A stretch of DNA of 52,478 nt. It comes from a virus. Below the pieces are notes generated by a model. The model was not told the origin of the DNA, ran no database searches, and saw only the letters and a program-made list of their open reading frames with translations. Made by a program: the position numbers and the translations under genes. Below are positions 908 to 50,878 of this stretch, piece after piece; within the stretch, counting starts at the first letter, position 1, and each line of letters begins with the position of its first letter. The stretch lies in IMG/VR virus record IMGVR_UViG_3300025646_000058, positions 1-52,478 of that record; one strand, 5' to 3'.

Positions 908-1159
908 TTATATCTTATTAATTGTGTAACATATTCCACTTGTCGCTAAAGATACACACACAATTTGTTGTATATCATAACTCAAAAACAAAGATAATAA
1001 AATCCCACAATATAAACCAATACATTGTGGACAACTTATCATTACCCCTAACTTAGCACTTTTTAAAGTTAGATACTCCCTAAATCCCTTTAAAATGTAA
1101 CTCTTTGTTATTATCATAGCTAATCCATAACTAGATAATATACTGATAAATATATTCAT
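908..1159 (-). CDS. Small membrane protein with CPQC motif (DUF1360-like)
   Basis: An 83-aa hydrophobic protein with probable membrane segments at about 1-18, 50-60 and 64-80. The central ISCPQCIGLYCG stretch resembles the conserved cysteine motif of DUF1360-type membrane proteins. It starts at 1159, overlapping by one base the stop of the 1577-aa tail gene, so it is translated with virion genes. A membrane protein there could act in DNA entry or assembly; that is inference. An AATTGTGTA word lies in its last codons (920-928). Confidence 0.6.
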   Translation of the reverse strand: MNIFISILSSYGLAMIITKSYILKGFREYLTLKSAKLGVMISCPQCIGLYCGILLSLFLSYDIQQIVCVSLATSGICYTINKI

Positions 1160-4100
1160 TATCTTAAATTTCTTTCAGATGGTGCGTAGTTTAACCCTAC
1201 TTGATATACCACTTCTTTTAGTTTTGAGTTAGTAATTAACTTAACTAAGAAACTTCTATCCCTCATTGCATCACCATTGATTTTAGGAAACTCCTCATTT
1301 ACAGTATTTACATCCCTCCAAACTTGCGAATAGTAAATATGCTCCTTACCATCAAACACTAAGTTATCTATATCTTCCTCTAAGAAGTCGTAAACATCAT
1401 TAGTAGTTTCCTGCCCATTTCTAGTTTCTATAATTACATCAAATGGAGTAGTAGTATGTAATGCTATTGACTTAGCAATTTTATTTTTATCCCTTTCCGC
1501 ATTAAAAGGTATCCATAATTCTGATTGATTATTTATACCATAGAATGTTGAATGATTTTCGTTTTGGTCATGTAAAAATAAAGCACCCCTATTAAATGAA
1601 GCTAAAGTTAAACCTATTGAACATAAGTATTCAGGCGTATATGAATAATAAGTTGTCCAATGCTTTGTTGTTTCACTAAACGCTAAAGTAATTGGTTTAA
1701 TATTTATCTCTTGCTTTCTTTCGTATTTAGGTAGGATAGGACTTGTACTAATTGTGTAGACTCCTGTTTCAACATTTCGTTCAATAGTAGTTTCTGTTTC
1801 AAATCCAGAAACATTATTCAACGTTTCAGTTGTAAATAAAATATCCGTACTTTCAGGAACTAACATTGTTTCAACTGATACAGTACCGAAACTTATATTA
1901 CCCACTACTGGAGGTATAAATAATTCCCTAGTTAATTCACCAAAAGCAACTACTAATTCCTCATAAGCTGTATCAAATGAAGTAAAGATTGTAGGCACTA
2001 TTTCACTTGCTAAGTATTGCCCAAACTTATCCTCAAAAAACTCTTTCATTTTTATATCGGATAGTAAAGTAATACCATCATTACTTAACCTACATACCGC
2101 CCCACGTTTATAATCTACAAAGTATCTTTGATTACCATTGTAACAGAAACTTTCAGGGTTTAACGCTATTCCATATTCTCCTGTATAATACACAATTTTA
2201 GATAGTACCTTCTCACTAGCAGCAACAGTACCCTGTCCAAATTGGTCAAATATAACATTCTCCTCCACTAAGATACTTCCTACTTTTAATTCCTGGTAAC
2301 AATCTAATCTTTTATTAAATGAATGTAATCTTTGAATACTACCATAAACTCTATCGTATTGCTCAAAGTTAACATCAAAGAAACTATTTAAGCCATTGAT
2401 TGAAGTTTCAGGTATAAATCTATCACTATAATAAATCGTTGTAGGTCGTCTTAATTGTTTAATATCCATATTAACAATATTAGGTCGCCCTGCATCAGTT
2501 GTTATAAAACTTCTATCAACAAAATCATTAACATAATTAGACTCTACAAATTCACTTGAATAAGTAGTTTCTGTAATAGGCATATTCCTTTGGAATAAAT
2601 AAGTATCTCCCGAAGTGAATTTAACTATTGCAGGTTCAGTGTCTGTTTGGTCTTGTACGTTACCTTTGTGTAATCCATTTTCAATTAGATAAAACTCGCC
2701 TATCTCAAAAAACAAGTTATTCTCTACATCTTTTAATGGAGTATATATCTCAAATAAATCACCACCATTTGTACTCAATGAAGGTAAGTTAAATTCATTA
2801 CGTAAAGTTAAAACTCCTGTACCAATATCATAAGATAAAATCTCTAAATCAAAGCGTGTAGAAAATGGGAAACCTTCCGCACTCTTTATAAATCTTATTC
2901 TATCTCCCTTTGTAAATGTATATACTAATTCACTTCCTTTGTTTACTTCGTTATAAATGTTTACTATATTGTCTATGCTTATATTAATTGTGTAACCATC
3001 ATTACTTGATGTTACATCACCCGATAACGTTTTGTATTCAGTTGTTTTAGAAATGAATTGTATGTAGTTTGTAAAGTTTAATTTCTTAGTTCTTACCCAA
3101 GCATAATGTGTCGCCCATTCAGGTGCTTTATTATACAAGTATCCGCTTACTATTGGTACTGATGAAAATGCGTATTGTGTAGGGTCACCCAAAACACTTT
3201 GTAAACCTATCTTAACCTTATCAGTAAAGAATGGTAAATCTAAGCGTAAATCCTCAATAGTGTTTACTGCTCCACTTCTATTCGCTCTATCATAATAAAC
3301 TATACCAAACTCATAAGATGCACCACGTTTTAAAAAACTAGTACCTAAACCAAATGTAGTTACAGCTTCTATATTACCTAAATCTAATCCAATTTCTGAA
3401 TTATATATTTGTATAGCAGGATCATTGTTAATATCCAAATACATATCAACATTACCCACAATATTATCAGTAACGTTATATCGTATTTGACTATTATTTG
3501 TAAATCCATAAATTGTGCCTGTATATCTTGATTGATTTAAACTTTGTGCAAAGTTATTAAATGAATCAGCGTAAACTATAATATCAAAGTAACCGTTTGA
3601 ATCTGTAAATTGATTATCACCTCTTTCAGCTAAAACAATTAATCCTGGTACAGAACTACCATTATTATCTACTATCCTACCACTTACGTTTGATTTAACA
3701 CTATCTAAAGCAAATCTATTTTTAACTTGCGCTAATAATAATAAACCATCATTATCAGTTGAAGGTATGTTAGTAATAACAGATAAACTTTCTAAAGCTC
3801 CTTTATACATTATTAAAGGAGTTTGTAGTGAGCCTTGTTGTATCGTTAAGAATTGTGTAACATCCGTTTTAATAAAGAAAAATCCGTTATGATCCGTAAA
3901 AGTAAATTTGTTAGCGAAATATCTACTTTGCCCTGCTACATAATTTCTGTTAGCTGTATAAAAACCTTCTGGTATATCATTAGAACCTTTATAATTTATC
4001 CTACTGTAAGTAACCCTTTGTTGCCCCCTTACATCATTTGTAGTGTTATAAGTTTCAGCTTCGTTATCATGTAAATATCCAAATGAAATAGTGTTATCTA

Positions 4101-5892
4101 TGTTCAACTCTTTTCTTTGAGTAGCTAAATTAACCCTTATCTTAGGATATGTAATATCAGCAATTTCAGTTGTGCCAATTTCTTTTACCTCACCACCTTC
4201 TACTTTTACTTTACACTCACAACCATCAATACCACCTACACGCATTGTAAAGGTAGAAGTTCTTTCATACGGTCTTGTAATATCATCATACTCTTCCTTA
4301 GTTGTTAAATGGCTAGCTATCCTTAAAATATATTCCCCATCAGGAATACCTTTTAATTCAAATTCACTATAAACAGCTTGCTGCTCCATTAAGTCAACTA
4401 TCCTTTCAGTATTAACTCTGTTTACAAAAAATACATTTGTAGAACTCATTATATCTGGGGCAACCCTCCTTTGCTTACTTATAGTCTTATAGTTAGTTCC
4501 AACTAAATAAACTACAAATCCAGCTAAAGGAATAGGGTTGTAATATAGTCCATTATTCAGATATTCTTTTTCAGTATCACCATCAGTAGAGTTGTTTCTA
4601 GCTATTAAAGCATGAGCTGTACTTACACTACCGAAATAAGGCTTACCACTATTATCACCATTTAAGTATCTTATTGGTTGACATCTTTGAAACGTTATTG
4701 AGTCATAATACTTTTCACCAATAGCAGCTAAACTTAGGTTTGGTACACCTAATACTCCTGCTGGCATATTGTTTACGTTTCTTATATATATTCTACCCTT
4801 AATTGTGTTTAATTCTTCGTCAGGTAATTGTGCATCCTCAAAAGCTTCATATTGAACATCTAAATCAGCTTCTACTTCTACATTATCATAATCCTCTATA
4901 ATATCACCATACACAATTCTATTACCCTCAATTAACGCCTGCGTTCCAGCTAATAAAGGTAACTTATCAAACAATTTAAGACTATCCCTTACATCAACTA
5001 ATGAATAGTTACCATCGTTATAGAAGTTATATACAAAATCCCCATTACCACTTTGCTCAAAAAAACTAACTGGCTTATCTAAAATTGAAATAAAATCTTT
5101 ACTCTCACTATCTCTTGCTACTATCTCTACACGCTTAACTAATTTACCACCCGAAGGCACAATTACTTGTATAGCGTTATTAAACTGATTAGTAGTTTGT
5201 ATATATGAAGTGTTGCTTATAGTCTGTTTTGATATAGGACTAAATGCACTCTTCTCTCCATCATCATATATGTATCTTGCTTTAAACTGCCATAATTCAT
5301 TACGGAAGTAGTTGACATCAAATTGTGTATCCGTAAAATATTTACTTGTAGGCGGATATAATGGCGGATATTTAACTGCATCAATAATATCTAAGGTAAT
5401 AGGTAAATCATATTTATCTCCTGTTAAACCTGTATTAAATGCTCTTATTGATTTACCAATATTAAATTTTCTTGGTGGATTTAATCTATCCACAAAATAA
5501 ATTAATTGGTTATCATTATCTAAATCCAATACATTCACATGGGTAATCAAATGCTCCTTACTGAAATTCAATAAAGGCGAAATCATAACCATTATGCTTT
5601 GGTCTTGTAGCAAATTATATTGAACAATATGGTGGTCGCCATTACTGTTGTGGTTGAAATAATAAACAATATTATCCCTTTTGTATTCGTAAGCACCAAT
5701 AGTTGTATTCTCTCCTTCTGGTAATTCAATATACCTTATCTCATTACCCTTGCACAATTCAACTGCGTTCTTATTTTCTGAATCACTAGATCCAATTCTT
5801 ACATTTACAGCTTTTCGGCAATAGCCATTTTCCACATCTCTTTCGTCTGTGTCGGCATCCATACCATAAACTACTCGTCTATTCTCTACCAT
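1159..5892 (-). CDS. Very large tail hub / muzzle-like virion protein
   Basis: A 1577-aa beta-rich protein. The N-terminal pattern (GMDADTDERDVENGYCRKAVNVRIG, here split: GMDADTDERD then NGYCRKAVNVRIG) followed by ELCKGN is typical of giant tail proteins of Bacteroidetes phages and prophages, in which a 'GMN.D....L..GEYR.A.NVR' segment precedes repeated strands. About 760-830 resembles a carboxypeptidase-regulatory-like beta-sandwich (SGRIVDNNGSSVPGLIVLAE, then DSNGYFDI). It follows three ring-sized genes, which matches the muzzle or nozzle of crAss-like and T7-like tails. No enzymatic motif was seen. Confidence 0.7.
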   Translation of the reverse strand: MVENRRVVYGMDADTDERDVENGYCRKAVNVRIGSSDSENKNAVELCKGNEIRYIELPEGENTTIGAYEYKRDNIVYYFNHNSNGDHHIVQYNLLQDQSIMVMISPLLNFSKEHLITHVNVLDLDNDNQLIYFVDRLNPPRKFNIGKSIRAFNTGLTGDKYDLPITLDIIDAVKYPPLYPPTSKYFTDTQFDVNYFRNELWQFKARYIYDDGEKSAFSPISKQTISNTSYIQTTNQFNNAIQVIVPSGGKLVKRVEIVARDSESKDFISILDKPVSFFEQSGNGDFVYNFYNDGNYSLVDVRDSLKLFDKLPLLAGTQALIEGNRIVYGDIIEDYDNVEVEADLDVQYEAFEDAQLPDEELNTIKGRIYIRNVNNMPAGVLGVPNLSLAAIGEKYYDSITFQRCQPIRYLNGDNSGKPYFGSVSTAHALIARNNSTDGDTEKEYLNNGLYYNPIPLAGFVVYLVGTNYKTISKQRRVAPDIMSSTNVFFVNRVNTERIVDLMEQQAVYSEFELKGIPDGEYILRIASHLTTKEEYDDITRPYERTSTFTMRVGGIDGCECKVKVEGGEVKEIGTTEIADITYPKIRVNLATQRKELNIDNTISFGYLHDNEAETYNTTNDVRGQQRVTYSRINYKGSNDIPEGFYTANRNYVAGQSRYFANKFTFTDHNGFFFIKTDVTQFLTIQQGSLQTPLIMYKGALESLSVITNIPSTDNDGLLLLAQVKNRFALDSVKSNVSGRIVDNNGSSVPGLIVLAERGDNQFTDSNGYFDIIVYADSFNNFAQSLNQSRYTGTIYGFTNNSQIRYNVTDNIVGNVDMYLDINNDPAIQIYNSEIGLDLGNIEAVTTFGLGTSFLKRGASYEFGIVYYDRANRSGAVNTIEDLRLDLPFFTDKVKIGLQSVLGDPTQYAFSSVPIVSGYLYNKAPEWATHYAWVRTKKLNFTNYIQFISKTTEYKTLSGDVTSSNDGYTINISIDNIVNIYNEVNKGSELVYTFTKGDRIRFIKSAEGFPFSTRFDLEILSYDIGTGVLTLRNEFNLPSLSTNGGDLFEIYTPLKDVENNLFFEIGEFYLIENGLHKGNVQDQTDTEPAIVKFTSGDTYLFQRNMPITETTYSSEFVESNYVNDFVDRSFITTDAGRPNIVNMDIKQLRRPTTIYYSDRFIPETSINGLNSFFDVNFEQYDRVYGSIQRLHSFNKRLDCYQELKVGSILVEENVIFDQFGQGTVAASEKVLSKIVYYTGEYGIALNPESFCYNGNQRYFVDYKRGAVCRLSNDGITLLSDIKMKEFFEDKFGQYLASEIVPTIFTSFDTAYEELVVAFGELTRELFIPPVVGNISFGTVSVETMLVPESTDILFTTETLNNVSGFETETTIERNVETGVYTISTSPILPKYERKQEINIKPITLAFSETTKHWTTYYSYTPEYLCSIGLTLASFNRGALFLHDQNENHSTFYGINNQSELWIPFNAERDKNKIAKSIALHTTTPFDVIIETRNGQETTNDVYDFLEEDIDNLVFDGKEHIYYSQVWRDVNTVNEEFPKINGDAMRDRSFLVKLITNSKLKEVVYQVGLNYAPSERNLR

Positions 5893-6648: not shown

Positions 6649-7275
6649 TTATTTCACGTTATCAGTTAATACATCTTGTGGCGTTTGCCTCATTGTATAA
6701 TACATTTGAACTACTAATTTAATAATTTCTTCCTGCATATTCAAAGGTAAATCAATATTATCTTCTTGACTATCACTTTGTATTCCACCTACTAGCTTTA
6801 TTAATAGCTTTTCAGGTATAGCAGCAGTATCCAAATTGTGCAAGTATATCCTTGTATTTTCTATGTAATAACCTTTGTTACCCTCTAAGTTAGCTACTAA
6901 CGTTCCTCTAGTTAACGCTAAGAAATCTGTTCTTAATGGCACAAATGTATTAAACTCATCTTGTACTGGCGATACGCTATATAAACCCATACCATTAGGT
7001 AAGTTAACATAACTACTGCTTATCGGTGCGTAATGCTTACATCTTTGTTTATCATATTTTACATTCTCTACAAATGAATAAATAAACGTACCATTCACAT
7101 TGTTCTCACCATCAGCATTTCTATTCTCGTAATAAGATGCTACAATGTACTTACCAAAACATTGGTCAACATACGTTTCTAACTCCTCCTTTGTTACTTG
7201 AACATCAGAGTTTACATCGCCCCCTTGAATAATCCTTTGAGCTTGTTCCGCTATTAAAGTTCTTGTATCTCTCAT
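6649..7275 (-). CDS. Tail ring / connector-like protein
   Basis: A 208-aa protein between two others of similar size. It has a helical N-terminus (RTLIAEQAQRIIQGGD), a mixed core and a helical C-terminus (NMQEEIIKLVVQMYYTMRQ). It includes LPNGMGLYSVSPV, again an 'LPnx' strand as in the flanking genes. It shares one base with the upstream gene stop. Probably one of the stacked ring proteins joining portal to tail hub; no direct motif proves this. Confidence 0.5.
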   Translation of the reverse strand: MRDTRTLIAEQAQRIIQGGDVNSDVQVTKEELETYVDQCFGKYIVASYYENRNADGENNVNGTFIYSFVENVKYDKQRCKHYAPISSSYVNLPNGMGLYSVSPVQDEFNTFVPLRTDFLALTRGTLVANLEGNKGYYIENTRIYLHNLDTAAIPEKLLIKLVGGIQSDSQEDNIDLPLNMQEEIIKLVVQMYYTMRQTPQDVLTDNVK

Positions 7276-7985
7276 TATACGCCTTGTTGTTTAAGTGTTT
7301 CAGAATATTGTACCAATTCAGCTTCACGTAAATTCATACCTAAATATGAAGCACACATAAAAACTAATTCATTCATACAATCTTCTGGTAATTCTATATC
7401 TGTTGATTTATCAATAGAATAAACTGGTTTATTGTTTACCACATCAAATCCCCATACAGGCGTTTTAGGCTTTCTTAAATATACCAACTTAACTGTTGAT
7501 ATAGTTTTAGGAAATATCTCTATCTTATCACCTATAAATCTTGCTACCCCTAACTTACCATTCTTTATTCTTTTACCGAATAGTACAGATGATAATTGTG
7601 CAGCCAACTCCGAATCTCTTAATATGCTAAAGTTAATTAAATCACTCTTTAATTCACCCTCTTTATCTAAATCATTTCTTACGTATGAAATTGTAGATAA
7701 ATGTAAATAATCATTAGGTAATGTTATTATACCGTTATTTACCTTATACGCTTCATTTACTACAATCAAATATCGTAAGTCATCTGTAATCTTTTGGTTT
7801 TGCTCAAAGCCTACCATAGCTGAACCATCAGGCTTTTGCTGTTTAACATTGTGATAGCGTTTAGTTATCAACTCATAAACCGCCCTAGAGATACTCTTAT
7901 TGAAATCTTTAGGAGTTAAAAAACCACTCTGACTTTTATTCGATATGAATTGTAAAAACTCATATACGCTATTTACATTTATCAT
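7275..7985 (-). CDS. Tail ring / connector-like protein
   Basis: A 236-aa protein. The N-terminal MINVNSVYEFLQFISNKSQSGFLTPKDFN pattern (in two parts: NSVYEFLQFISNKSQSG, FLTPKDFN) and the following LPNDYLHLSTISYV strand are familiar from connector proteins of Bacteroidetes podophages. It is the first of three consecutive 208-250-aa genes upstream of the tail hub. Likely a portal-proximal ring protein; inferred from order and the shared LP.DY element. Confidence 0.5.
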   Translation of the reverse strand: MINVNSVYEFLQFISNKSQSGFLTPKDFNKSISRAVYELITKRYHNVKQQKPDGSAMVGFEQNQKITDDLRYLIVVNEAYKVNNGIITLPNDYLHLSTISYVRNDLDKEGELKSDLINFSILRDSELAAQLSSVLFGKRIKNGKLGVARFIGDKIEIFPKTISTVKLVYLRKPKTPVWGFDVVNNKPVYSIDKSTDIELPEDCMNELVFMCASYLGMNLREAELVQYSETLKQQGV

Positions 7986-7996: not shown

Positions 7997-10144
7997 TTAA
8001 ATAGAATCAAATGCTGCTATTATATCTGCTTCTGTATATGTTGAATCAATTGGATAACATAAGTTTATTGTAAAACTAAATCCACCCCATTGTGCAGGTT
8101 CATTTGCATCAATAGCTGTTGGATAAGTTTTAGTTGAATCAGTAATACTAAACCCTCCTATTTGTTCTTTATATGAATAATAAGAAGGTACATTAGCTCC
8201 TGAATCAGCTCTAGTAATTAACTTATAAACAGGGAAATTACCTATTGCAGTTCCTACTGAATCATCTGCATCTTTTTGTGAAATAACATTTAACTTACCA
8301 TCAGTATCCAACCTTACAGAACCAAATACAGTGTTTAAAGTAATTACATGAGTATTACCTGTATCTAAAATGTTTCTTTGTGAAAATACATTTTGCCCTA
8401 AAAACATTGTTTGATTAGGAGCTAATACCGTTGGTAAAATTGAACTTTGAGAAATCATAACACCATAAGGATTTACGTTATAACCACCATCAGTTCCTGT
8501 ATAAGTTTGAACATCCACATTGTAAGGACTTTGATAATCACTAAAAGGAGTTCTTAAAGTAGTTGAAGCTCCTGTTTGTGCTAAAGGTATTAATACTCTA
8601 CCTGTAATAAAAACTATCTTACCTACAACTCTAATACTAGGATTAGTCCAACCTACTACTGGTGCAAAACCAAATGTACCATTGTGACTATTCATAACTT
8701 TCCAACCACTATCGTAATTGTTTAAAAAATCATCTGGATTAGCCCATATTCTATTACCTAATGTATCACTTGATAATATATATCCACTTACTAAAGGATT
8801 TCCTAATGAGTTTTCTTTCGTAGCTAATTGTGTAGCATCCACCAAATCTCTACCTCTACTATTCAAGATTAAAGTACCTCTCCACGCTCCTACATATTCA
8901 GCTAATATCACAGGCTTATTACCACTTGTAGGTGATGAAGAAGCTTGTAAATCAGTTAAAGGAATACCAAAGATAGTTACGTTGTTACCATCTAAAGTTA
9001 TTTGTTGGTCAATATAAATAACAAAAGTATCTCCTTCTTTTGGAGTTCCTGCTCCTTGAATTGTCCATGATGAAGTTAATGTTACTGAACTTCCTGTAAT
9101 TCTAACGTATTTCTCATCAACACCTGGAGTTAAATTTAATGTACCTCCACCTGCTGTTAATTCTACATCTTTTCTACCTAAAACTTCTTGTGGAAAATTC
9201 GCACTCCTAAACGCTTCTACTGTTAACGGAATACCTGGTGAGCGTGTTACTTCCCAAAAATCACCATCAATGAATTGTAAGTAAATTACACTATCAGTAT
9301 CTCCTGTAACAAAACTAGCACTATTCGCTAAATTAATATTTCCTAACTCATTAATAGTTACCACCCTAGAAGCATTTAAACCTCTTATGATTAATGAATC
9401 ACCATTAGAGAAACCTTCTGCAATAATATCTGTTAAGTTATCACTTGCAGCTAAACCTTCTGTATCTACCTCTATTTGAGTTAACGTACCTTTTCTATCT
9501 ACTTTAATGCTTCCATCTAAAATTGTGTAAGCACGTATATCAATAGGTGCATTGTAAGGTCGTCTTACAATAAATGATGATATATCGGTTGCACCTGATA
9601 AACTTCCGTATGGAGCAGATACACTATCATTTATCCATACTTTAATACCTGTTTGTGCATCTATAATATCCTGCGATGAAGTACCACCATCTAAATCTGT
9701 TTTAGTAAATGCTAATGTACCTGTTACAGTTGCAGCTAAAGTTGATCCATTTAATGAAGAACCAAATCCAGACTGAATAAATATGTAAACAGTTTCACCT
9801 AATACTTGTGCAGTATAGTTTGGAGTTGAACTAAATGAATTAATAGCTGTTGCAGTTGCATTAGCCAAATCACTTAATGTAGCTCCAGAAATTGGAGTAC
9901 CTGTATCAAATATGGAAACACCATTTATAGTTAAATCTGTTACAGTACCTGTACCACTTGTATAGGTAATTGTAGCTAAAGCTAAAGTTTCCCCAATTAC
10001 AGGACTTGAACATAACAACATTTTATCAGCCTGCTCTTTGCCTGCTTTATTATTTTTAAATGTTGATATAATTGTATCATTGGAATTAGTTAAGTATATT
10101 AAACCTAAACCTGTTCCATATTTTGTTGCTTTGTTAAAACTCAT
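7997..10144 (-). CDS. Beta-rich virion protein, possibly tail or head fibre
   Basis: A 715-aa Ser/Thr/Gly-rich protein without predicted membrane segments. The first 150 residues look like a tail-sheath or Ig-like repeat region (GTVTDLTINGVSIFDTGTPI). The middle resembles trimeric fibre linkers (TVEAFRSANFPQEVLGRKDV), and the C-terminal 200 residues form a receptor-binding-like beta domain ending in TYTEADIIAAFDSI. It overlaps by one base the 608-aa gene upstream. Function is inferred from composition and location between capsid and tail-ring genes. Confidence 0.5.
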   Translation of the reverse strand: MSFNKATKYGTGLGLIYLTNSNDTIISTFKNNKAGKEQADKMLLCSSPVIGETLALATITYTSGTGTVTDLTINGVSIFDTGTPISGATLSDLANATATAINSFSSTPNYTAQVLGETVYIFIQSGFGSSLNGSTLAATVTGTLAFTKTDLDGGTSSQDIIDAQTGIKVWINDSVSAPYGSLSGATDISSFIVRRPYNAPIDIRAYTILDGSIKVDRKGTLTQIEVDTEGLAASDNLTDIIAEGFSNGDSLIIRGLNASRVVTINELGNINLANSASFVTGDTDSVIYLQFIDGDFWEVTRSPGIPLTVEAFRSANFPQEVLGRKDVELTAGGGTLNLTPGVDEKYVRITGSSVTLTSSWTIQGAGTPKEGDTFVIYIDQQITLDGNNVTIFGIPLTDLQASSSPTSGNKPVILAEYVGAWRGTLILNSRGRDLVDATQLATKENSLGNPLVSGYILSSDTLGNRIWANPDDFLNNYDSGWKVMNSHNGTFGFAPVVGWTNPSIRVVGKIVFITGRVLIPLAQTGASTTLRTPFSDYQSPYNVDVQTYTGTDGGYNVNPYGVMISQSSILPTVLAPNQTMFLGQNVFSQRNILDTGNTHVITLNTVFGSVRLDTDGKLNVISQKDADDSVGTAIGNFPVYKLITRADSGANVPSYYSYKEQIGGFSITDSTKTYPTAIDANEPAQWGGFSFTINLCYPIDSTYTEADIIAAFDSI

Positions 10145-29081: not shown

Positions 29082-29121
29082 AATTGTGCAAGCATAAAAA
29101 AGTAGTAACGAATTAAAAAAT

Positions 29122-31268: not shown

Positions 31269-31279
31269 TTGTGCAAGCT

Positions 31280-32386: not shown

Positions 32387-32409
32387 TTAAATTGTGTATC
32401 CATAACCAA

Positions 32410-39345: not shown

Positions 39346-39517
39346 GGATTGTGAAACTTATGAGGATTACTTTGTTTGGTTACAATTAAATGTTCCTCAC
39401 TATGTTTCACCACAAAGATTACAAGGTAATCAACACGTTAAAGTATTTAAGACACCAACAACAAGAAGAAAAATGTGTGAGATGCTTGCACAATTATTAC
39501 ATGAACAATTAAAATAA
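39317..39517 (+). CDS. Hypothetical 66-aa protein
   Basis: Overlaps the HTH gene by 29 bases in another frame. Contains YVSPQRLQGNQHVKVFKTPT, basic and possibly DNA-binding. It ends one base before the recombinase start. Not recognised. Confidence 0.45.
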   Translation: MDTKIPKTIKDCETYEDYFVWLQLNVPHYVSPQRLQGNQHVKVFKTPTTRRKMCEMLAQLLHEQLK

Positions 39518-40169: not shown

Positions 40170-42238
40170 TGATTGAATATATAAAAAAAATACAAGCACT
40201 AGGCTACACAATTTTCCCACTAAACAGGAATAAAGAACCTAACTTTAAAAAAGGAGGTGTCATTAATACCTATTCATGGGCAGATTTTAATCATACTAAT
40301 CCGTTTCCATTAAATGATGAAACAGAAAAGCTATTTATATACTTAGGGGTATCTTGTGGTAAAGCTTCAAACAATTTAGAGGTTATTGATGTTGATTGTA
40401 AGTATGAATTAAATCAGGATTTATGGAAAGAGTATTCGGAGTTGTTGAAAGATAATTTATCAGAGGAAACCTATTCCAAATTGTGCATCATTAAGACTGT
40501 TAACAACGGTTACCATATCTATTACAAATGTGGTGTAATTGAAGGTAATAAAAAACTTGCACAAAGAAGTTTTACTAAGGAAGAAAAAAACGCTTTGTTT
40601 TTACAGTTAAAAGCTGATGGAGTTGAAAAGGAAAAAGCTATAAATACTTGTAATAGTAAACGTGCAACGTTAATTGAAACTAGAGGAGAAGGTGGTTATG
40701 TTGCAACATACCCTAGTGATGGCTACACAATTATACAAGGAAGCTTTGAAACAATACCTACCATTACAGAAGAGGATAGAGATATTATCATGTGTTGTGC
40801 TAAGGCAATGGACTTAATGGAAGAGGAAACAATAATTGAGAAAAAAGTTTCCTTACCTGTTTGGGAAGAAGGTAAAAAGCCTTGGGATGCCTACAACGAA
40901 CAAACTACTGCTTCTGATATGGCTGATTTGTTTACTCGTAATGGCTACACAATTACTAAACGTATTAAAAATAAAATCTACATCAAACGACCAGGAGGTA
41001 AATCACAATCAGGAAACATTAAAGAAGATGTTAAACTGTTTGTAGCTCATTCAAGCAATACGCCCTTTGAAGTTGGTAAAGGTTATCCTGCATCAGGAGT
41101 ATTTGCGGTACTAGAATGTGGTGGTGATTTTTCACTAGCAGGTAAGAAGTTACTTGAAATGGGATATGGTGATAAACCTAAAAAGAAGTTATCAAATGAT
41201 TTTGAGATTTTATCTGAAACGTTTGAGCCTGAAAAATATGTCGCTAAAACTAATAAAAATAAGGAACAGATTGAGAAGTTTTTACGTGGTGAATATGCAA
41301 TGGGTTTATCAACTGGGTATGAATCATTAGATGAATACTATATGTTTAAGCAAGGTAAATTTGATGTGTTTTTAGGACATGAGAATATAGGTAAATCTAC
41401 AATACTTTGGTATATGTGTGTACTTGCTAATATCTTGCACAATTGGAAATGTATAATCTACTCAACAGAAAACGATGCTTGGGTAGTACAGAAACAAATG
41501 ATGGAATTTTTAGTAGGTAAAAAAATGAGTTTGTTTACTGAAAAGGAAAAAGAGATTTCTTACGAATGGTTCGATAAAAACTTTGTGATAATTGAAAATG
41601 AAAAGTTATTAGCGTATAACCAAATACTACAAGTTGCTGAATCGTTTTTACTAAAGGGCGAATATCAGGTATTGATGATAGATCCATACAACACTTTATC
41701 ATACAATTGGGAAGGATTAGATAGGCGCATGGGGTTACACGAATATCATCACCACGTGGCTACACAATTCAAACAATGGAGCAAAAACATAAATTGCAGT
41801 ATATGGTTAAATATGCACCCAGTAACAGATGCGTTAAGAACAGTAGAGGCATCAGGAGATTTTAAAGGATTAAGAAAACCTCCTATTTCTTCACAAGCAG
41901 AAGGTGGTGGTAAATGGGTAGCTAAAGCTGATAACTTTGTAGTATTACACCGTTATACTAAACACCAAACTGAAAATAACGTAACGTTTTTTGATGTGCA
42001 TAAAGTAAAAGAAACCTTTACTGGTGGTAAACCAATGATAGATGGTAATGCTTTTAAATTAAGATTAACTAACTATGGAGGTTTTATAGGTTTTTTTGAT
42101 GAACAAAATAGAAATCCTTTATTGGGTATATTCAAAAAAAGGTTTATCTTTGGGGAGCAAATGGAAATTAAAGAAGAAATTGAAGAAAAGCCTAAAAGTA
42201 GATTATCTAAATGGACTGATATAACAGCTCCTTTCTAA
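40169..42238 (+). CDS. Bifunctional primase-helicase
   Basis: 689 aa from the ATG at 40169. The N-terminal part (about 1-215) resembles primase-polymerase N-terminal domains: IFPLNRNKEPNFKKGG, NLEVIDVDCK (Asp74/Asp76) and NGYHIYYKCG. The C-terminal part (about 375-690) is a RecA-like DnaB-type helicase: FLGHENIGKST is a Walker A variant (403-411), and VLMIDPYNTLS Walker B. It unwinds DNA and primes lagging strands at the phage fork. Seven motif words lie in this gene. Confidence 0.85.
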   Translation: MIEYIKKIQALGYTIFPLNRNKEPNFKKGGVINTYSWADFNHTNPFPLNDETEKLFIYLGVSCGKASNNLEVIDVDCKYELNQDLWKEYSELLKDNLSEETYSKLCIIKTVNNGYHIYYKCGVIEGNKKLAQRSFTKEEKNALFLQLKADGVEKEKAINTCNSKRATLIETRGEGGYVATYPSDGYTIIQGSFETIPTITEEDRDIIMCCAKAMDLMEEETIIEKKVSLPVWEEGKKPWDAYNEQTTASDMADLFTRNGYTITKRIKNKIYIKRPGGKSQSGNIKEDVKLFVAHSSNTPFEVGKGYPASGVFAVLECGGDFSLAGKKLLEMGYGDKPKKKLSNDFEILSETFEPEKYVAKTNKNKEQIEKFLRGEYAMGLSTGYESLDEYYMFKQGKFDVFLGHENIGKSTILWYMCVLANILHNWKCIIYSTENDAWVVQKQMMEFLVGKKMSLFTEKEKEISYEWFDKNFVIIENEKLLAYNQILQVAESFLLKGEYQVLMIDPYNTLSYNWEGLDRRMGLHEYHHHVATQFKQWSKNINCSIWLNMHPVTDALRTVEASGDFKGLRKPPISSQAEGGGKWVAKADNFVVLHRYTKHQTENNVTFFDVHKVKETFTGGKPMIDGNAFKLRLTNYGGFIGFFDEQNRNPLLGIFKKRFIFGEQMEIKEEIEEKPKSRLSKWTDITAPF

Positions 42239-42277: not shown

Positions 42278-42934
42278 ATGGCTAGAGGAAATCAGCAAGA
42301 CAACTACACTAACTTTTATGTAAAGTTGGTAGGATTGAAAAAAGGAAGCAAAGAATGTTTCTTTGAATTTAAACAAAAAAAGGGCGACAAGTACGAAGTT
42401 GTTGATAAGCAACAAACTTTTGAAGGCTTGCTAGAAACTATCAAAGTTAAAGAAATTGAGCATGAAGGTAAGAAAAAACCTGTGTTAGAAATTATCCTGC
42501 GTGATGATATTGCAGCAGAAAGATATTTCTTGAATATGGGTATGAGTAATATTTCAAGGCAATTAATTTCTTGCTTACATTCAGCAGAAAGCTTAAACCA
42601 TTTATCATTCTGGACTAAAATGGGAGATAATGGTTTTCCCATCCTAGTAACTAAAGCCAATAATAGTAGTGATAAACTACAATGGGGTTTAGATATGAAA
42701 GAGTTATCTGCTAAGTATGTTACTGAACATAAAGTAGGTGATGATATTATCAGAGTGTATAAGGAGTTGGATAACTACTTATTAACGCAAATTTTACCTG
42801 GTGTCATATCTAAAATTGTGCAACAACCTAAAGCAAGTATAATGACTGTTAAAGATAGTGTACCTGCGGAAGTTGTAAAGCCTAATGTTTATGAGGCTAG
42901 TGAAGAAGAAGGTGATGATGATTTACCATTTTAA
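42278..42934 (+). CDS. Single-stranded DNA-binding protein
   Basis: 218 aa. OB-fold-like strands at the N-terminus and an acidic tail ending EEEGDDDLPF, the C-terminal type that SSB proteins use to recruit partners. Encoded directly after the primase-helicase. Protects ssDNA at the fork and during recombination. The exact SSB family was not resolved. Confidence 0.7.
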   Translation: MARGNQQDNYTNFYVKLVGLKKGSKECFFEFKQKKGDKYEVVDKQQTFEGLLETIKVKEIEHEGKKKPVLEIILRDDIAAERYFLNMGMSNISRQLISCLHSAESLNHLSFWTKMGDNGFPILVTKANNSSDKLQWGLDMKELSAKYVTEHKVGDDIIRVYKELDNYLLTQILPGVISKIVQQPKASIMTVKDSVPAEVVKPNVYEASEEEGDDDLPF

Positions 42935-42964: not shown

Positions 42965-43231
42965 ATGGAAATATATCCTGACCTAAAGATAGTTGAAACA
43001 GACAATTCATTTGAACTATCAACGCACGTAAGATTGTTTTATAAAGGTGAAAGCTATTTAACCTATGTATTTGAACAAGTATTTTTTGATAATGATGGGA
43101 AATTAGCAAGAAAACATTGTTTACAAAGCTTTATAAATACAATTGATTTGGTGCATACACAATTGGAAATCACAGAACAATTAATAACTAAAGAAATAGT
43201 AATAAAAGAAAATGGAAAAGGCAAAGATTAA
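42965..43231 (+). CDS. Hypothetical 88-aa protein
   Basis: Acidic, beta-rich (DNSFELSTHVRLFYKGESYL). It overlaps the next gene by 20 bases. A motif word lies at 43156. Function not recognised; close to the SSB gene. Confidence 0.5.
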   Translation: MEIYPDLKIVETDNSFELSTHVRLFYKGESYLTYVFEQVFFDNDGKLARKHCLQSFINTIDLVHTQLEITEQLITKEIVIKENGKGKD

Positions 43232-43613: not shown

Positions 43614-43915
43614 TGAATACAGACTTATTATTTGACCTTATAGTAGCATGGGGTAAAGAACGTGGCATTTTAGATAAAGCTACGGTGCGTACACAATTTG
43701 AAAAATTAATGGAAGAAGTATTAGAATTACACGAAGCCATAGTAACCGATAACGAAAAAGAATTTAAAGATGCTGTGGGTGATTGTGTAGTGGTATTAAC
43801 GCTTCTTTGTAAGTTAAAGGGGGTTGATATTAATAATTGTGTAAACATCGCATACAACGTAATTAAGGAGCGTACAGGTAAAATGGTTAATGGTACTTTT
43901 GTAAAGGATAAGTAA
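43613..43915 (+). CDS. MazG-like nucleotide pyrophosphohydrolase
   Basis: 100 aa. KLMEEVLELHEAI (31-43) gives the EExxE metal-binding motif and KDAVGDCVVVLT (52-63) the second acidic pair D53/D57 of the all-alpha NTP-PPase fold. Single-domain MazG-like enzymes in phages hydrolyse dNTPs or alarmones. Three motif-like words occur in 160 bases, exact ones at 43690 and 43836. It overlaps both neighbours by one base. Confidence 0.8.
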   Translation: MNTDLLFDLIVAWGKERGILDKATVRTQFEKLMEEVLELHEAIVTDNEKEFKDAVGDCVVVLTLLCKLKGVDINNCVNIAYNVIKERTGKMVNGTFVKDK

Positions 43916-44118
43916 TGGATATAGCGTATATTTATACCAATGGTGAAGATACTAAAGTTTTTGGTTCGGAGCTTACACAATTAGACCACGACAACCTAAC
44001 CGAAAACGATTACCATTTAACTGCTTCTATACATACAGTTGAGCTAATTAGAAAATTGTGCAACGTTGAAAATAAAGAACGACACCAAATAATTGATAAA
44101 CTATTTAAGCATATATAG
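43915..44118 (+). CDS. Hypothetical 67-aa protein
   Basis: Acidic protein (AYIYTNGEDTKVFGSELTQL). Motif words at 43974 and 44054 are inside the gene and at 44170 in the gap after it. No recognised family. Confidence 0.45.
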   Translation: MDIAYIYTNGEDTKVFGSELTQLDHDNLTENDYHLTASIHTVELIRKLCNVENKERHQIIDKLFKHI

Positions 44119-44215
44119 ACTAAATCTATTAACGCTTTATTATTGATAGAAACAATCAATTAAAAACCTTGCACAATTTAAAATAGTAACCTTAATTTAG
44201 TAAAAAAAATAAACA

Positions 44216-45331
44216 ATGAAAGATTTTCCAAAAGAATTGGCGCACCTTACACAATATGCTAAATACTGCAAAAAACTAAAGGAAGGAGTATATGGCTTTT
44301 TTATTAATCAGTTTAATCCTGATGGCACAAAGAACATAGACTGGTATGAATTTAGAAAAAACACTTTAGGTGCTTCTGAAACTGCAACTGCTTGTGAAGG
44401 TGGTTATGATGAGTATGGAGTAAGAGCTAAATTGTTTTGGAGTAAAGTAGGTGCTAAATTTCCTGAAATAAAATCTAAATTTACCTTTTGGGGGTTAGAA
44501 TTAGAACGTAATGTTGCTAATGCTTGGAAGTATTATGATGGCTCGGAAGAAGGGTATATCGATAATAGATACAACGCAAATGTTATTCGTGAATTTCAAG
44601 ATTTAAACTGTTATGCTATTAATATTAAGTATCCTTATCTTTCTGCATCTTTTGACTTTCTTGTACCAGAAGGGCAAGTAAATCCATTTAGTGGTGAGGT
44701 TGTGAATTTTTCGTATCCTTTAGAGATTAAAACTATCTCTTTAGCTGCTGCTGAAAAGTACGAAACAGGATTGCCTGTTAGATACATATTCCAAACTCAC
44801 CAACAAATGATTATCTGGGAATGTGATTACTGTGAGATTGCTGCACTAAAAGGTGGTACTGATTTTCAAGTTTACCCTATTAAAATGGTTGATAGTGTAA
44901 AGGAAATGGTATTGAAAGAAACTAAGGAGTTTTGGGATTTAGTTGTTGAAGCTAGACCTATTTACAATGAGTTAGAAATAACTTTTGATAATGATAAAAA
45001 ACAACAATTAAGAGAGCAATTAGATAACTTAGAACCTGAACCTGAACAAAATAAAGGTTACGAGGATTTTTGGAAAGAAAAATATAAGGAAGGTAGTATT
45101 GCTAAAGAATTAGTTGGTACTGATGATGATTTCCAAATTGCTGTTGCTTATAAAGATATTCTTGAAGAAGAAAAGGAATTATCAACTAAAAAACAATTAA
45201 TTAAAAATCACTTGCTTTATATTATGAAAGATTATGAGGAACTTACTTTTGGTGATAAAGGTAGGGTAGTACATAGAAATAATCCAGGTAGTAGAGCTTA
45301 TTTTGGAGTTAACATTAAGAATTATAAGTAG
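44216..45331 (+). CDS. YqaJ-type viral recombinase exonuclease
   Basis: 371 aa PD-(D/E)XK nuclease. GASETATACEGG (52-63), GLELERNV (93-100, Glu), YLSASFDFLV (141-150, D147), PLEIKT (168-173, E170 and K172) and THQQMIIW (194-201) are the ordered YqaJ/lambda Red-alpha signature. It degrades one strand of duplex DNA to give the ssDNA used by the annealing protein at 45,864-46,568. No internal exact motif word occurs. Confidence 0.85.
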   Translation: MKDFPKELAHLTQYAKYCKKLKEGVYGFFINQFNPDGTKNIDWYEFRKNTLGASETATACEGGYDEYGVRAKLFWSKVGAKFPEIKSKFTFWGLELERNVANAWKYYDGSEEGYIDNRYNANVIREFQDLNCYAINIKYPYLSASFDFLVPEGQVNPFSGEVVNFSYPLEIKTISLAAAEKYETGLPVRYIFQTHQQMIIWECDYCEIAALKGGTDFQVYPIKMVDSVKEMVLKETKEFWDLVVEARPIYNELEITFDNDKKQQLREQLDNLEPEPEQNKGYEDFWKEKYKEGSIAKELVGTDDDFQIAVAYKDILEEEKELSTKKQLIKNHLLYIMKDYEELTFGDKGRVVHRNNPGSRAYFGVNIKNYK

Positions 45332-45597
45332 TGAGATTTAAAATAGGCGACAAGGTAAGGATAGTTAATTACGGATCTAAATTAAAAATCCGTAAAGATG
45401 AATACAAAGATTTATCAATAACATTTCCTATCATTAAAGAAGAAGGTGATTTTTACATTACAGATATGAGTAGAGAAAAAATAGGTAAGGAAACTATTAT
45501 AACAAAAGTATCTGATGGGCAATACGCTACTGAATTAGTTTCATGGCTTAATGATAACCAATTAGAATTAGTAAACGATACACAATTAGATATATGA
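45331..45597 (+). CDS. Hypothetical 88-aa SH3-like protein (GTG start)
   Basis: Starts with GTG overlapping the exonuclease stop. MRFKIGDKVRIVNYGS and the later KETIITKVSDGQYATELV give a small beta barrel resembling KOW/SH3 folds. A motif word lies 10 bases before the stop (45579). Role unknown, possibly nucleic acid or protein binding. Confidence 0.5.
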   Translation: MRFKIGDKVRIVNYGSKLKIRKDEYKDLSITFPIIKEEGDFYITDMSREKIGKETIITKVSDGQYATELVSWLNDNQLELVNDTQLDI

Positions 45598-46568: not shown

Positions 46569-46909
46569 TGGAAAAGGAAGAATTTGTTTCTATAATGAAC
46601 AGTATTGAAAAGCATTATAGACAATACCAAAACAAAACCAATGTATTATCTACACAATTAGGTGGTAATATAGATTTTATCGGTGGTGAATTTGTTGATA
46701 TTGTAGTTAGAACATTACAGCAAGTATTTCCTCCTTACATTGATAAAGATGGTAAAGTACACTGCACAATTGAATACTATATGTACGATTTAGATTTTGG
46801 TAAACGTACAGACTTATCTATTACACATATAGATAATGGAGTTGAAAATAAAATATTATTAACTGATGCAGGTAAGCTGTATGATTACTTAACTACTTAT
46901 GGAGTATAA
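46568..46909 (+). CDS. Hypothetical 113-aa protein
   Basis: Overlaps the annealing gene by one base. Alpha/beta protein (GGEFVDIVVRTLQQVFPPYI; IEYYMYDLDFGKRTDLSITH). It contains motif words at 46651 and 46763. Conserved-looking but not assigned. Confidence 0.5.
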   Translation: MEKEEFVSIMNSIEKHYRQYQNKTNVLSTQLGGNIDFIGGEFVDIVVRTLQQVFPPYIDKDGKVHCTIEYYMYDLDFGKRTDLSITHIDNGVENKILLTDAGKLYDYLTTYGV

Positions 46910-47726
46910 ATATAAATCAAAGGAAGAGGAGTTTTTTGCGTTGTGGTTAGATGAATTGTGCAAGCATGGGTTTATTGTTGAATATGTTTATGAGCCTAAA
47001 CCAATATTGTTATCGGATAAAGTAGAAAGAATCGTTAATGTAAAAGGTAAGTTAGCTACACAATTTGTGTTGCACCCTCACGAATATACATACGATTTTG
47101 AAATACTTTGGGATACTAAAGCAATAGGTATATTCGCTACACAATTTGAAGCAAAACAAAAATCCCAAACACCATTATATTGTGATAAAGAATATGTAAG
47201 CTACATAGAGATTAAACCTGAATTTGATTTTAAAAATATGACTAGAGAAGTTATGATTAATCTAAAATGGGTTTACGAGAAACATAAAATCTTTGTGAAT
47301 TTAGTTAAGATACCTAGTTTTTTTAAAAAATCTTTTACTCCATATAAATTTTTACAGAATAAAAACGGAACAATGAAGAAGATTAAGTACACGCCTATTT
47401 TGAAGTTTGCACAATTCTTATCGAATGCACTAGCAAAAACCAATAGAGAAATAGAAGTATCCGTAGAAGGATGTATTGCTAACGTAAAACTAATTGATAA
47501 ACATTCGCATTTAGTTTTTCCTGGTGAAATTGAATTAGAAGTTGAATTTACTTATGAAATTGATGAGTATGAAACAGGTGATGGAGTTACTACACCTAGA
47601 GAGAAATGGATGGATGTTACAGTTAAAATTGAGGAGGTTACACACTTAGGAATGGAAATAACCTTAGAAAGCAAAACCTTACACTCAATAGAGGAATTAA
47701 TAATTGAAGAGATAAAAAATAAATAG
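46899..47726 (+). CDS. PD-(D/E)XK nuclease-like protein with C-terminal extension
   Basis: 275 aa. KSKEEEFFALWLDELCKHG (7-25), EYTYDFEILW (62-71, D66) and YVSYIEIKPEF (99-109, E104 and K106) match the E/D/ExK order of RecU- or DUF1064-type nucleases. The C-terminal 110 residues (EGCIANVKLIDKHSHLVFPG; TVKIEEVTHLGMEITLES) form a second beta-rich domain. Could resolve branched DNA from the recombination genes. Motif words at 46954, 47057, 47138 and 47408. Confidence 0.65.
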   Translation: MEYKYKSKEEEFFALWLDELCKHGFIVEYVYEPKPILLSDKVERIVNVKGKLATQFVLHPHEYTYDFEILWDTKAIGIFATQFEAKQKSQTPLYCDKEYVSYIEIKPEFDFKNMTREVMINLKWVYEKHKIFVNLVKIPSFFKKSFTPYKFLQNKNGTMKKIKYTPILKFAQFLSNALAKTNREIEVSVEGCIANVKLIDKHSHLVFPGEIELEVEFTYEIDEYETGDGVTTPREKWMDVTVKIEEVTHLGMEITLESKTLHSIEELIIEEIKNK

Positions 47727-48237: not shown

Positions 48238-48735
48238 ACCTACTGTTGGGGTTCTATTATAAATATTAAATCCTACTTCCGCCTGGTATCTATCCCATAA
48301 ATAAGAAGCTTTTGGGGTGATGTTTTGGTATCCAAATTGTGTACCGATGTAAATTCCTCTTGGTTGTATTACATTAGTTATTTTAACCGTATCAACTCTG
48401 TGGTATGAAGGAATATTCGCTGTGTATTTTATATCTGTATTTAGTAATGTACCATTCACAATTTGTTTAATTTCCATATCAATTAACGTATCCTTATATT
48501 CAGTTAAATATTCGTTAGCTTGCACAATTAGGATACTGTCGATTATCGTATCCCTAACCACTCTAACAATTGTTGCAGGAATACTAGGTGCATAAACTGT
48601 TTTAGTTACATATACAGTATCAGTTTTACCTTGTATGTATTCAGTCTTAGTTTCAGTTACTTTTACTCCACATTTTTTAAAAGTAATTAAAAATAAAACT
48701 ACCATTAAACCTATAATTATAATATTATTTCTCAT
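48220..48735 (-). CDS. Spanin-like envelope protein
   Basis: 171 aa from the ATG at 48735, which overlaps the PAS gene stop (ATGA); two ATGs lie further upstream. One N-terminal span (IIIIGLMVVLFLITF) leads into an extended Thr/Val-rich stalk (TKTEYIQGKTDTVYVTKTVY), and the C-terminus (GIYIGTQFGYQ; AEVGFNIYNR) looks like a beta barrel or outer-membrane piece. It fits a spanin-type protein bridging inner and outer membranes in lysis. A common Bacteroidetes phage type; the role is inferred. Confidence 0.55.
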   Translation of the reverse strand: MRNNIIIIGLMVVLFLITFKKCGVKVTETKTEYIQGKTDTVYVTKTVYAPSIPATIVRVVRDTIIDSILIVQANEYLTEYKDTLIDMEIKQIVNGTLLNTDIKYTANIPSYHRVDTVKITNVIQPRGIYIGTQFGYQNITPKASYLWDRYQAEVGFNIYNRTPTVGLSVKF

Positions 48736-49768: not shown

Positions 49769-50248
49769 TTAAAATATATAATTGCCAATTTCTTCCTTTA
49801 CGAATTTCTTTACATCAAAGTTAGGACAAGTTTTACCTTTGTCTAAATCTGTGTGCCCAAAAAACTGTTCTTGACTTAATATTTTTCTATCAATTAATTC
49901 TACTATCAAATACGCTAAAGTTTTTTTCTGTTCATCAGTTCTTTCATCTTTACCTTTAAATCCACCAATTAAACAAATGCCTAAGTTACCAGTATTAAAT
50001 CCTCTTACGTGCGCTCCTGTTTTATTTATATCTCTACCTATTTGTATGTTTCCATTAGGTAAAACAACTAAATGATAACCAATTTCTTTAAACCCTCTTT
50101 GTTTATGCCACAATTCAATTTGTTCTGCTTTATCTCCCCTATTAACAGGGCTATCACTTACATGAATTGTGCAACGTGTTAACTTTTGTGTTATAGTAGG
50201 AAAGTTTTTTAAAAACTCTTCTAATGTAAAAATATCAAACTTTTTCAT
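49769..50248 (-). CDS. N-acetylmuramoyl-L-alanine amidase (T7 lysozyme type endolysin)
   Basis: 159 aa from the ATG at 50248, two bases after the preceding stop; an in-frame ATG 60 bases upstream would overlap that gene and is less likely. Zinc ligands match T7 lysozyme: H29 (TIHVSDSP), H132 (FFGHTDLDKGKTC) and C141, with Y58 (IGYHLV) and K139 as catalytic helpers. Cuts the amide between muramic acid and L-alanine. No signal peptide, so it depends on the holin. Confidence 0.9.
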   Translation of the reverse strand: MKKFDIFTLEEFLKNFPTITQKLTRCTIHVSDSPVNRGDKAEQIELWHKQRGFKEIGYHLVVLPNGNIQIGRDINKTGAHVRGFNTGNLGICLIGGFKGKDERTDEQKKTLAYLIVELIDRKILSQEQFFGHTDLDKGKTCPNFDVKKFVKEEIGNYIF

Positions 50249-50249: not shown

Positions 50250-50738
50250 CTAATAAACCAAATTAAATTCTGTAAATAATCTAGCACTAACTTCATTGTA
50301 TAAATCAATTATCCATTGAGGTTTTTCTTGCCTTTTTCCTTTTATATAATCTCTAAAATTAAAAAATGGTCTAGCCATTCTTACTACTTGAAATTGCGTT
50401 AATGCCCAGGCTTCACTATTACCGCTACACAATTCGATATATAAAAATATAACATCATTCTCATAACAACCAAACCCCATACGTGAAGGATAATCGTGAA
50501 AGAATACAGATAAGTTACCTGCATATCTATCTTTGATAAATGTCTTACCATCAAACCCTCTAGTTTCCCAATACCTACTTCTAAATATCATTTCAAGATT
50601 ATTCCTAAATGATATACCTAAGTTAAAATCCTCTGCTTGTTTTAAGTAGTTTTTCCAAACTGATTTTTCACTAAAGAATCTAAATTCATATCCAAATAGT
50701 TGATTCTTATAAGGTGATGTGTAAGGTTTATATTCCAT
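50250..50738 (-). CDS. Hypothetical 162-aa protein in the lysis block
   Basis: Aromatic-rich soluble protein (FLYIELCSGNSEAWALTQFQ). The segment LSVFFHDYPSRMGFG has an HDY element reminiscent of DUF1353-type proteins found beside phage amidases, but the match is weak. It lies between the small lipoprotein and amidase genes. Function unknown. Confidence 0.5.
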   Translation of the reverse strand: MEYKPYTSPYKNQLFGYEFRFFSEKSVWKNYLKQAEDFNLGISFRNNLEMIFRSRYWETRGFDGKTFIKDRYAGNLSVFFHDYPSRMGFGCYENDVIFLYIELCSGNSEAWALTQFQVVRMARPFFNFRDYIKGKRQEKPQWIIDLYNEVSARLFTEFNLVY

Positions 50739-50740
50739 AG

Positions 50741-50878
50741 TTATTCAATTATATAAGGATAGTGAGGATGTTTTTTATAGTCTATTTTTTTATTAATTGT
50801 GCAACTATTAAATAGGTACATAAATATACCCATTAATACTATAAATGCAACTCTTTCAAAATTAGATTTGGGTTTCAT
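50741..50878 (-). CDS. Small lipoprotein, possible outer-membrane spanin
   Basis: 45 aa, too short for most gene callers. A type II signal peptide (FIVLMGIFMYLFNSC, lipidated Cys at 26) is followed by a 19-residue basic tail TINKKIDYKKHPHYPYIIE. It lies among lysis genes, two bases before the 162-aa gene. Outer-membrane spanin subunits are small lipoproteins like this. Alternative: an envelope immunity lipoprotein. Confidence 0.55.
   Translation of the reverse strand: MKPKSNFERVAFIVLMGIFMYLFNSCTINKKIDYKKHPHYPYIIE

Follow-up and report, generated by a model that had tools for sequence, protein, structure and literature searches.

AATTGTGYA (Y is T or C) is a nine-base word that occurs 83 times in a 52,478-nucleotide stretch of viral DNA (IMG/VR record IMGVR_UViG_3300025646_000058, positions 1 to 52,478; hereafter the window), and comparison with related sequences indicates that it is under purifying selection at the nucleic-acid level. 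The window covers part of the genome of a Bacteroidota-type phage. The reading preferred here, tentatively and at somewhat below even probability, is that the words would be double-stranded DNA sites, read either way round by a protein which the phage itself encodes and which tags or organises the phage DNA.

Abundance and form of the word

An exact count gives 44 copies on the plus strand and 39 on the minus strand, with the outermost copies starting at 920 and ending at 50,803. The pyrimidine is T in 53 copies and C in 30. In 200 dinucleotide-preserving shuffles of the window the word appeared 2.5 times on average and at most 7 times, and an order-2 Markov model predicts 2.7 copies, so that chance and base composition are rejected as its cause. 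An earlier reading of the same DNA, made from the letters alone (the sequence-only reading), had counted the same 44 and 39 copies by eye, had expected about two, and had proposed the shuffled controls; its figures hold. Among 9-mer patterns with a pyrimidine at that position, AATTGTGYA is both the commonest and the most over-represented in the window. Its density there is ~1,580 per Mb, and across the group of related phages that carry it the word occurs about once per 630-740 nt (~1.4-1.6 per kb). The word was not found in the literature searched, in agreement with the remark of the sequence-only reading that no described system uses it.

The sequence requirement is strict in the core and soft outside it. 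One-letter variants are at or near background both in the window and in four genomes summed, the biggest excess among them being that of AAGTGTGYA (22 vs 5, four genomes); the requirement for the word is thus close to all-or-none. Around it a softer pattern, C W core N S C W Y C, can be seen, with preferences for C at -2, G/C at +10, C/A at +11, A/T at +12, a pyrimidine at +13 and C at +14. Since the 3' preferences are similar around intergenic, sense and antisense copies, these preferences are part of a DNA site of ~17 bp without dyad symmetry. Spacing in the window is near random (coefficient of variation 1.1, largest gap 3.5 kb), and a rule of regular spacing was rejected.

Phages carrying the word

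The window terminase is ~33% identical to those of Elemovirus and of Maribacter phage Panino, and the window's Prim-Pol/helicase shares 28% identity with that of Cellulophaga phi38:1. Closer relatives came from two scans. An alignment-based scan gave G001 (70 kb, terminase identity 78% to the window), and a RecE scan gave G016 and G017; the RecE alignment scan found no relative in bacterial genomes. These three relatives, at 75-91% nucleotide identity, bear 96, 101 and 94 copies of the word, respectively, and together with the window they are the four distinct genomes compared below (the word phages). Near-identical contigs also have the word, and remoter relatives, with terminase identity of at most 46% and mainly structural genes in common, have 0-1 copies. 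G016 (63 kb, with a 127-bp terminal repeat) is probably complete. The window is not a complete genome, because ~13 kb of tail genes, which lie at 21.5-35 kb in G001 between homologues of the window's two ends, are missing from it. A scan of IMG/VR for the pair pattern gave mostly chance matches, and the single match among those listed that looked genome-wide was a contig of the same phage. In the unrelated contig IMGVR_UViG_3300020042_012680, ten copies of AATTGTGYA stand at multiples of 45 bp (63,215-63,853); they belong to a tandem repeat, and that contig has no genome-wide word.

The copies in the window are given below by window coordinates, strand and exact letters (AATTGTGTA or AATTGTGCA). 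A position common to all four word phages, as is the case for 23 copies, is marked 4/4.

920..928, +, AATTGTGTA, 4/4
1750..1758, +, AATTGTGTA
2189..2197, -, AATTGTGTA
2986..2994, +, AATTGTGTA, 4/4
3851..3859, +, AATTGTGTA
4826..4834, +, AATTGTGCA
4910..4918, -, AATTGTGTA, 4/4
5321..5329, +, AATTGTGTA, 4/4
5751..5759, -, AATTGTGCA
6834..6842, +, AATTGTGCA, 4/4
7594..7602, +, AATTGTGCA
8826..8834, +, AATTGTGTA, 4/4
9521..9529, +, AATTGTGTA, 4/4
10484..10492, +, AATTGTGCA, 4/4
11389..11397, +, AATTGTGTA, 4/4
11435..11443, +, AATTGTGTA
11657..11665, +, AATTGTGTA
15174..15182, +, AATTGTGCA, 4/4
15543..15551, +, AATTGTGCA, 4/4
17967..17975, +, AATTGTGTA, 4/4
18533..18541, -, AATTGTGCA, 4/4
18886..18894, +, AATTGTGCA
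19024..19032, -, AATTGTGCA
20413..20421, +, AATTGTGCA, 4/4
21795..21803, +, AATTGTGTA, intergenic
22983..22991, -, AATTGTGCA
23092..23100, +, AATTGTGTA
23396..23404, -, AATTGTGCA
23713..23721, -, AATTGTGTA
23981..23989, -, AATTGTGCA, 4/4
24147..24155, -, AATTGTGTA
24529..24537, -, AATTGTGTA
24707..24715, +, AATTGTGTA
25912..25920, +, AATTGTGTA
25973..25981, -, AATTGTGTA
26578..26586, +, AATTGTGTA, overlaps a stop codon
27595..27603, +, AATTGTGTA, intergenic
27685..27693, +, AATTGTGTA, intergenic
29082..29090, +, AATTGTGCA, intergenic
29754..29762, +, AATTGTGTA
30669..30677, +, AATTGTGTA
31267..31275, +, AATTGTGCA, gene junction
32149..32157, +, AATTGTGTA, intergenic inverted word pair, left arm
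32178..32186, -, AATTGTGTA, intergenic inverted word pair, right arm
32270..32278, +, AATTGTGTA
32390..32398, +, AATTGTGTA, intergenic
34545..34553, +, AATTGTGTA
34645..34653, -, AATTGTGCA
34814..34822, -, AATTGTGTA
35067..35075, -, AATTGTGTA
38605..38613, -, AATTGTGTA
38853..38861, -, AATTGTGTA
38914..38922, -, AATTGTGTA
39487..39495, -, AATTGTGCA
39530..39538, +, AATTGTGTA
39621..39629, -, AATTGTGTA
39801..39809, +, AATTGTGCA, 4/4
40099..40107, -, AATTGTGTA, 4/4
40205..40213, -, AATTGTGTA
40479..40487, +, AATTGTGCA, 4/4
40724..40732, -, AATTGTGTA, 4/4
40946..40954, -, AATTGTGTA, 4/4
41436..41444, -, AATTGTGCA, 4/4
41761..41769, -, AATTGTGTA, 4/4
42814..42822, +, AATTGTGCA
43156..43164, -, AATTGTGTA
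43690..43698, -, AATTGTGTA
43835..43843, +, AATTGTGTA
43974..43982, -, AATTGTGTA
44054..44062, +, AATTGTGCA
44170..44178, -, AATTGTGCA, intergenic
45579..45587, -, AATTGTGTA
46651..46659, -, AATTGTGTA
46763..46771, -, AATTGTGCA
46954..46962, +, AATTGTGCA
47057..47065, -, AATTGTGTA
47138..47146, -, AATTGTGTA
47408..47416, -, AATTGTGCA
48335..48343, +, AATTGTGTA, 4/4
48521..48529, -, AATTGTGCA
50165..50173, +, AATTGTGCA
50426..50434, -, AATTGTGTA
50795..50803, +, AATTGTGCA, intergenic

The pair at 32149-32186 consists of two facing words that form an inverted repeat with 19-nt arms, flanked by two early genes.

Conservation of the word among relatives

The words are kept far beyond the level of the surrounding DNA. 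At 91% identity (G001 vs G016), 89 of 100 and 89 of 92 aligned words are kept (89-97%), against 55% of all 9-mers. At 84% identity the figures are 81-88% and 29%, and at 75% identity 62-69% and 12%. When the window and G001 were aligned separately under the guidance of their proteins, 27 of 53 words and 9.6% of 9-mers were kept. When words are lost between close relatives, it is mainly by one or two point changes, and against a contig 99% identical, which has 220 differences elsewhere, none of the 32 aligned words had changed. Silent sites behave in the same way: in codons that agree in their amino acid and first two bases, identity at the third position is 0.87-0.90 within words and 0.64 elsewhere. 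The sequence-only reading had claimed that selection must act on DNA or RNA, and had named conserved synonymous sites around the copies as a check and loss of the word from close relatives as the sign of error. Positional conservation in the diverged relatives and the silent sites both bear out selection on nucleic acid, and the relatives have kept the word in place. Taken as a whole, that interpretation stands in part: nucleic-acid selection and a non-coding cause are upheld, and its proposals of an RNA signal, a stoperator, a Chi-like element and a helix-turn-helix (HTH) reader do not fare well, as described below.

Protein coding and orientation

Most copies lie inside genes, as called from open reading frames: 72 of the 83 are fully genic, 47 of them antisense and 25 sense, with every phase used, and 11 are not wholly genic. 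This agrees with the sequence-only reading, which had placed copies in genes and gaps, on both strands and in three frames, and whose codon readings fit the computed phases (Y-T-I at 39621, 40724 and 40946; T-Q-F at 47057 and 47138; H-N at 38914). Its statement that protein coding does not explain the word also holds, as synonymous shuffling predicts only ~10 copies and the word is found between genes, in all phases and in both orientations. An artefact of codon usage or composition, to which the genic majority might point, has a negligible probability in view of these ~10 copies, the 2.5 of the dinucleotide shuffles, the intergenic copies with the same 3' flanks and the conserved silent sites.

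The proteins themselves appear to have been affected. Window proteins contain 80 places where the peptide could spell the word synonymously; shuffled or first-order modelled proteins have 20-28, and five other phages 8-22 per 16,000 residues. Judged from those shuffled proteins and five phages, word-compatible peptides are about four times commoner than chance, and the word seems to have bent the proteins by adding some 50 such peptides. At 71 of the 80 permitted places the word is present, whereas shuffled words fill ~9% (300 shuffles), a value slightly too high because one of the 300 shuffles is the true word. To call the permitted places saturated is too strong, since chance would leave about as many places unfilled as the 9-18 seen per genome.

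Antisense copies are in surplus because the peptides allow the antisense spelling (Y-T-I, T/A-Q-F/L) more often than the sense one. Whichever strands the gene and the word lie on, the word fills 63-93% of the places open to it in each of the four phages, and permitted positions on both strands are used near-equally in both arms. This similar use argues for a site without strong polarity, and indifference to orientation favours double-stranded DNA rather than RNA. Polar uses (stoperator, KOPS, one-way Chi) were rejected on the same grounds, and the RNA-processing, stoperator and polar Chi-like roles listed in the sequence-only reading lose ground accordingly.

A putative array of recognition sites

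Under the preferred reading, the 83 words would be double-stranded DNA recognition sites, each with a hard 9-bp core, AATTGTGYA, within an asymmetric site of ~17 bp. Their reader, a sequence-specific protein that these phages themselves encode, would accept either orientation, and the sites together, at ~1.4-1.6 per kb, would be an array by which the phage DNA is marked or organised. Such a dense, exact, orientation-free and near-randomly spaced array best fits a mark that works by its presence. Its most likely use would be a "self" tag for the replication, recombination or packaging machinery of the phage, or for a genome-coating protein. That a phage gene codes for the reader is our inference; the identity of this protein and its purpose in reading the word are guesses. 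Likely sequence-specific binders common to the four word phages are the DnaA domain-IV-like protein, the Cro/C1-type HTH protein, the serine recombinase and the Prim-Pol; the RecE/YqaJ-like exonuclease is listed as a candidate partner.

25588..26004, +, Cro/C1-type HTH protein, less favoured candidate reader, found only in the four word phages
38374..38757, +, DnaA domain-IV-like HTH protein, candidate reader, in 4/4 word phages, signature [KR][DH]HSS[IV]IH kept
39519..40169, +, small serine recombinase, candidate reader, with catalytic motifs and a conserved basic C-terminal tail
40163..42238, +, Prim-Pol/helicase replication protein, candidate reader, in 4/4 word phages (true start probably the ATG at 40,169)
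44216..45331, +, RecE/YqaJ-like exonuclease, candidate partner, 80% identical across word phages

The Cro-like protein is the reader that the sequence-only reading had suggested. It is not favoured here because its probable base-contact residues differ while the word is identical: in the four phages the recognition helix starts with TPK, ATE, HTK and APT. AlphaFold modelled the protein with low confidence (mean pLDDT 65), and the best PDB matches of that model are Cro/C1-type HTH proteins, all with E >0.1. The usual targets of Cro/C1-type proteins are palindromes.

Several points weigh against a phage-coded tag. The varying recognition helix is one, and sequence alone gives no choice among the candidate readers. 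Intergenic copies in the early region are mostly oriented with transcription. The words are unevenly distributed, with 2.8 per kb in replication genes and 1.1 per kb in structural genes, an unevenness for which a simple self tag gives no need. The early genes of remoter relatives are too thinly sampled for gene-by-gene association. A host-coded reader, though unlikely, is conceivable. Contigs with a DnaA-domain gene and no word, described in the next section, also count here.

A more specific version, which we consider possible but doubtful, is that the invariant, non-polar word would be a phage-encoded self code, read by the phage's own machinery to tell phage from host DNA. In that version, selection for the code would suffice to maintain silent sites and to reshape many phage proteins, and the code would be unlike stoperators, Chi and uptake sequences. 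If the self tag were real, it would bear on how phages discriminate self from host DNA in replication, recombination and packaging. The reading predicts that the phage has a DNA-binding protein for which all 9 bp must be exact, and the word phages offer a natural test of a DNA-level code that competes with protein coding.

Alternative explanations

It is rather unlikely, though the best of the alternatives, that the words are replication signals, either lagging-strand priming sites of the phage Prim-Pol/helicase or DnaA-like boxes for the phage DnaA-domain protein. Genes for both proteins are present in all four word phages, and word density peaks in the replication region. The related Prim-Pol of the archaeal plasmid pRN1 begins primers at GTG, but the known specificity of Prim-Pols is only ~3 nt, so that selection for an exact 9-mer would not be expected. 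The near-equal use of permitted positions on both strands and in both arms also speaks against such signals. As for DnaA, the core has TGTGNA, as does a DnaA box in its inner part when reversed. However, the TTAT part of the box is absent and AAT is required in its place; the reversed word is TRCACAATT, with G/C at the second T of the box TTATNCACA. The classical box TTATNCACA itself was rejected as the word, since it has just 2 copies in the window, is not enriched, and its consensus is not matched. Furthermore, a genome-wide word is lacking from 57 contigs that have DnaA-domain genes, so that a DnaA-domain gene is not a sufficient cause of it.

A stoperator-like array, in which a repressor such as the Cro-like protein at 25,588-26,004 would sit on the words and block transcription, is a poorer prospect. 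Its attractions are the many asymmetric genome-wide copies, as in Cluster A mycobacteriophages, the restriction of the Cro-like protein to the word phages, and the pair at 32,149/32,178 together with several copies at early-region gene ends. On the other hand, 72 of the 83 copies are genic and 47 of them antisense, whereas the stoperators of L5 are aligned with transcription and no longer work when turned round (PMC9283540). The motif of stoperators is subject to drift among related phages (PMC6550527), but AATTGTGYA is identical at 25% divergence, even as the recognition helix of the Cro-like protein differs in all four.

Molecular drive is slightly less probable still. Recombination during co-infection would favour word-bearing DNA, as biased uptake does for the USS of Haemophilus, and copies would accumulate without benefit. 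The word phages code for the RecE-like exonuclease and other recombination proteins; to our knowledge, RecE-type systems have no such sequence bias. In form and density the word does resemble uptake sequences (PMC7811141). However, uptake words are scarce in newly acquired segments (PMC7811141), and AATTGTGYA is not: its density is 1.41 per kb in window genes without a homologue in the three relatives and 1.51 per kb in shared genes.

A host-read signal such as Chi, which would shield phage DNA from a host nuclease, is very improbable. AATTGTGYA is short, exact, asymmetric and dense, like the Chi sites of RecBCD/AddAB. A host-read word (Chi, uptake signal or KOPS) is expected to be enriched in the host, and in 396 Bacteroidota genomes, a sample outside which the host may lie, the word reached at most ~50 per Mb, against ~1,580 per Mb in the window. 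This makes a strong but non-final case against the Chi-like or uptake role via the host that the sequence-only reading had listed. Chi is also polar, whereas the word shows no polarity in the phage and stands on both strands, mixed, in the one Bacteroidota genome listed in detail.

Other words and a mobile gene

Other motifs were noticed in the window and in other phages. The word CACTATCA is nearly one-stranded whatever the gene direction in Maribacter phage Panino (24:2), Cellulophaga phi38:1 (1:15) and Calle_1 (14:0), with 1-2 copies expected, and shows little enrichment in 61 Bacteroidota genomes. MW202828.1 has, mainly at 43.7-60 kb, 14 perfect palindromic cores TCGTTAACGA, mostly as GTGTCGTTAACGACAC; those examined lie mainly in the early region by gene ends and are operator-like. 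GCGTATA is in about fivefold excess in the window (27 vs 5; e.g. 23550, 24383 and 32554) but occurs only 10-13 times in each of the three relatives. Words containing GATC, GTAC or GTATAC are strongly depleted in the window (AAGATC 4 vs 39, TGATCA 1 vs 19, TGTACA 2 vs 23 and GTATAC 1 vs 19 expected), which suggests restriction avoidance. A DNA methyltransferase gene at 21987-22808 is a mobile gene: its DNA is ~87% identical to Flavobacterium phage mymlan6-1, parts are up to 90% identical to G001, where they stand at a different location, and it was not found in G016 or G017.

Comparison with known systems

At ~1,580 per Mb, AATTGTGYA is a very dense selected word, and none of the phage systems compared matches it. 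The nearest phage precedent is the stoperators of Cluster A mycobacteriophages (L5, TipsytheTRex), which are likewise numerous asymmetric sites over a phage genome, some of them at gene ends. L5 has >20 stoperators of 13 bp, in promoters and short gaps (PMC6550527, PMC9283540) and oriented with transcription, whereas the word phages have 83-101 sites, mainly genic and in both orientations.

Uptake sequences (Haemophilus USS, Neisseria DUS) are the nearest in form. They too have a 9-10-bp core with softer flanks, occur at ~1 per kb on both strands, and lie within genes; H. influenzae has 1,465 nine-bp uptake cores (PMC7811141). Uptake sequences, however, are a feature of competent bacteria, whose uptake machinery recognises them, whereas AATTGTGYA is a phage word without enrichment in the sampled Bacteroidota.

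A third case is SPBRE of Bacillus phage SPbeta, a 15-bp repeat with about ten copies in promoter regions, bound by MrpR (PMC10516654). It differs from the 83 mainly genic copies of AATTGTGYA in number and place. The likeness is that of a repeated phage element whose reader was long missing: for SPBRE it was unknown for 24 years and then turned out to be a recombinase-like protein (PMC10516654).

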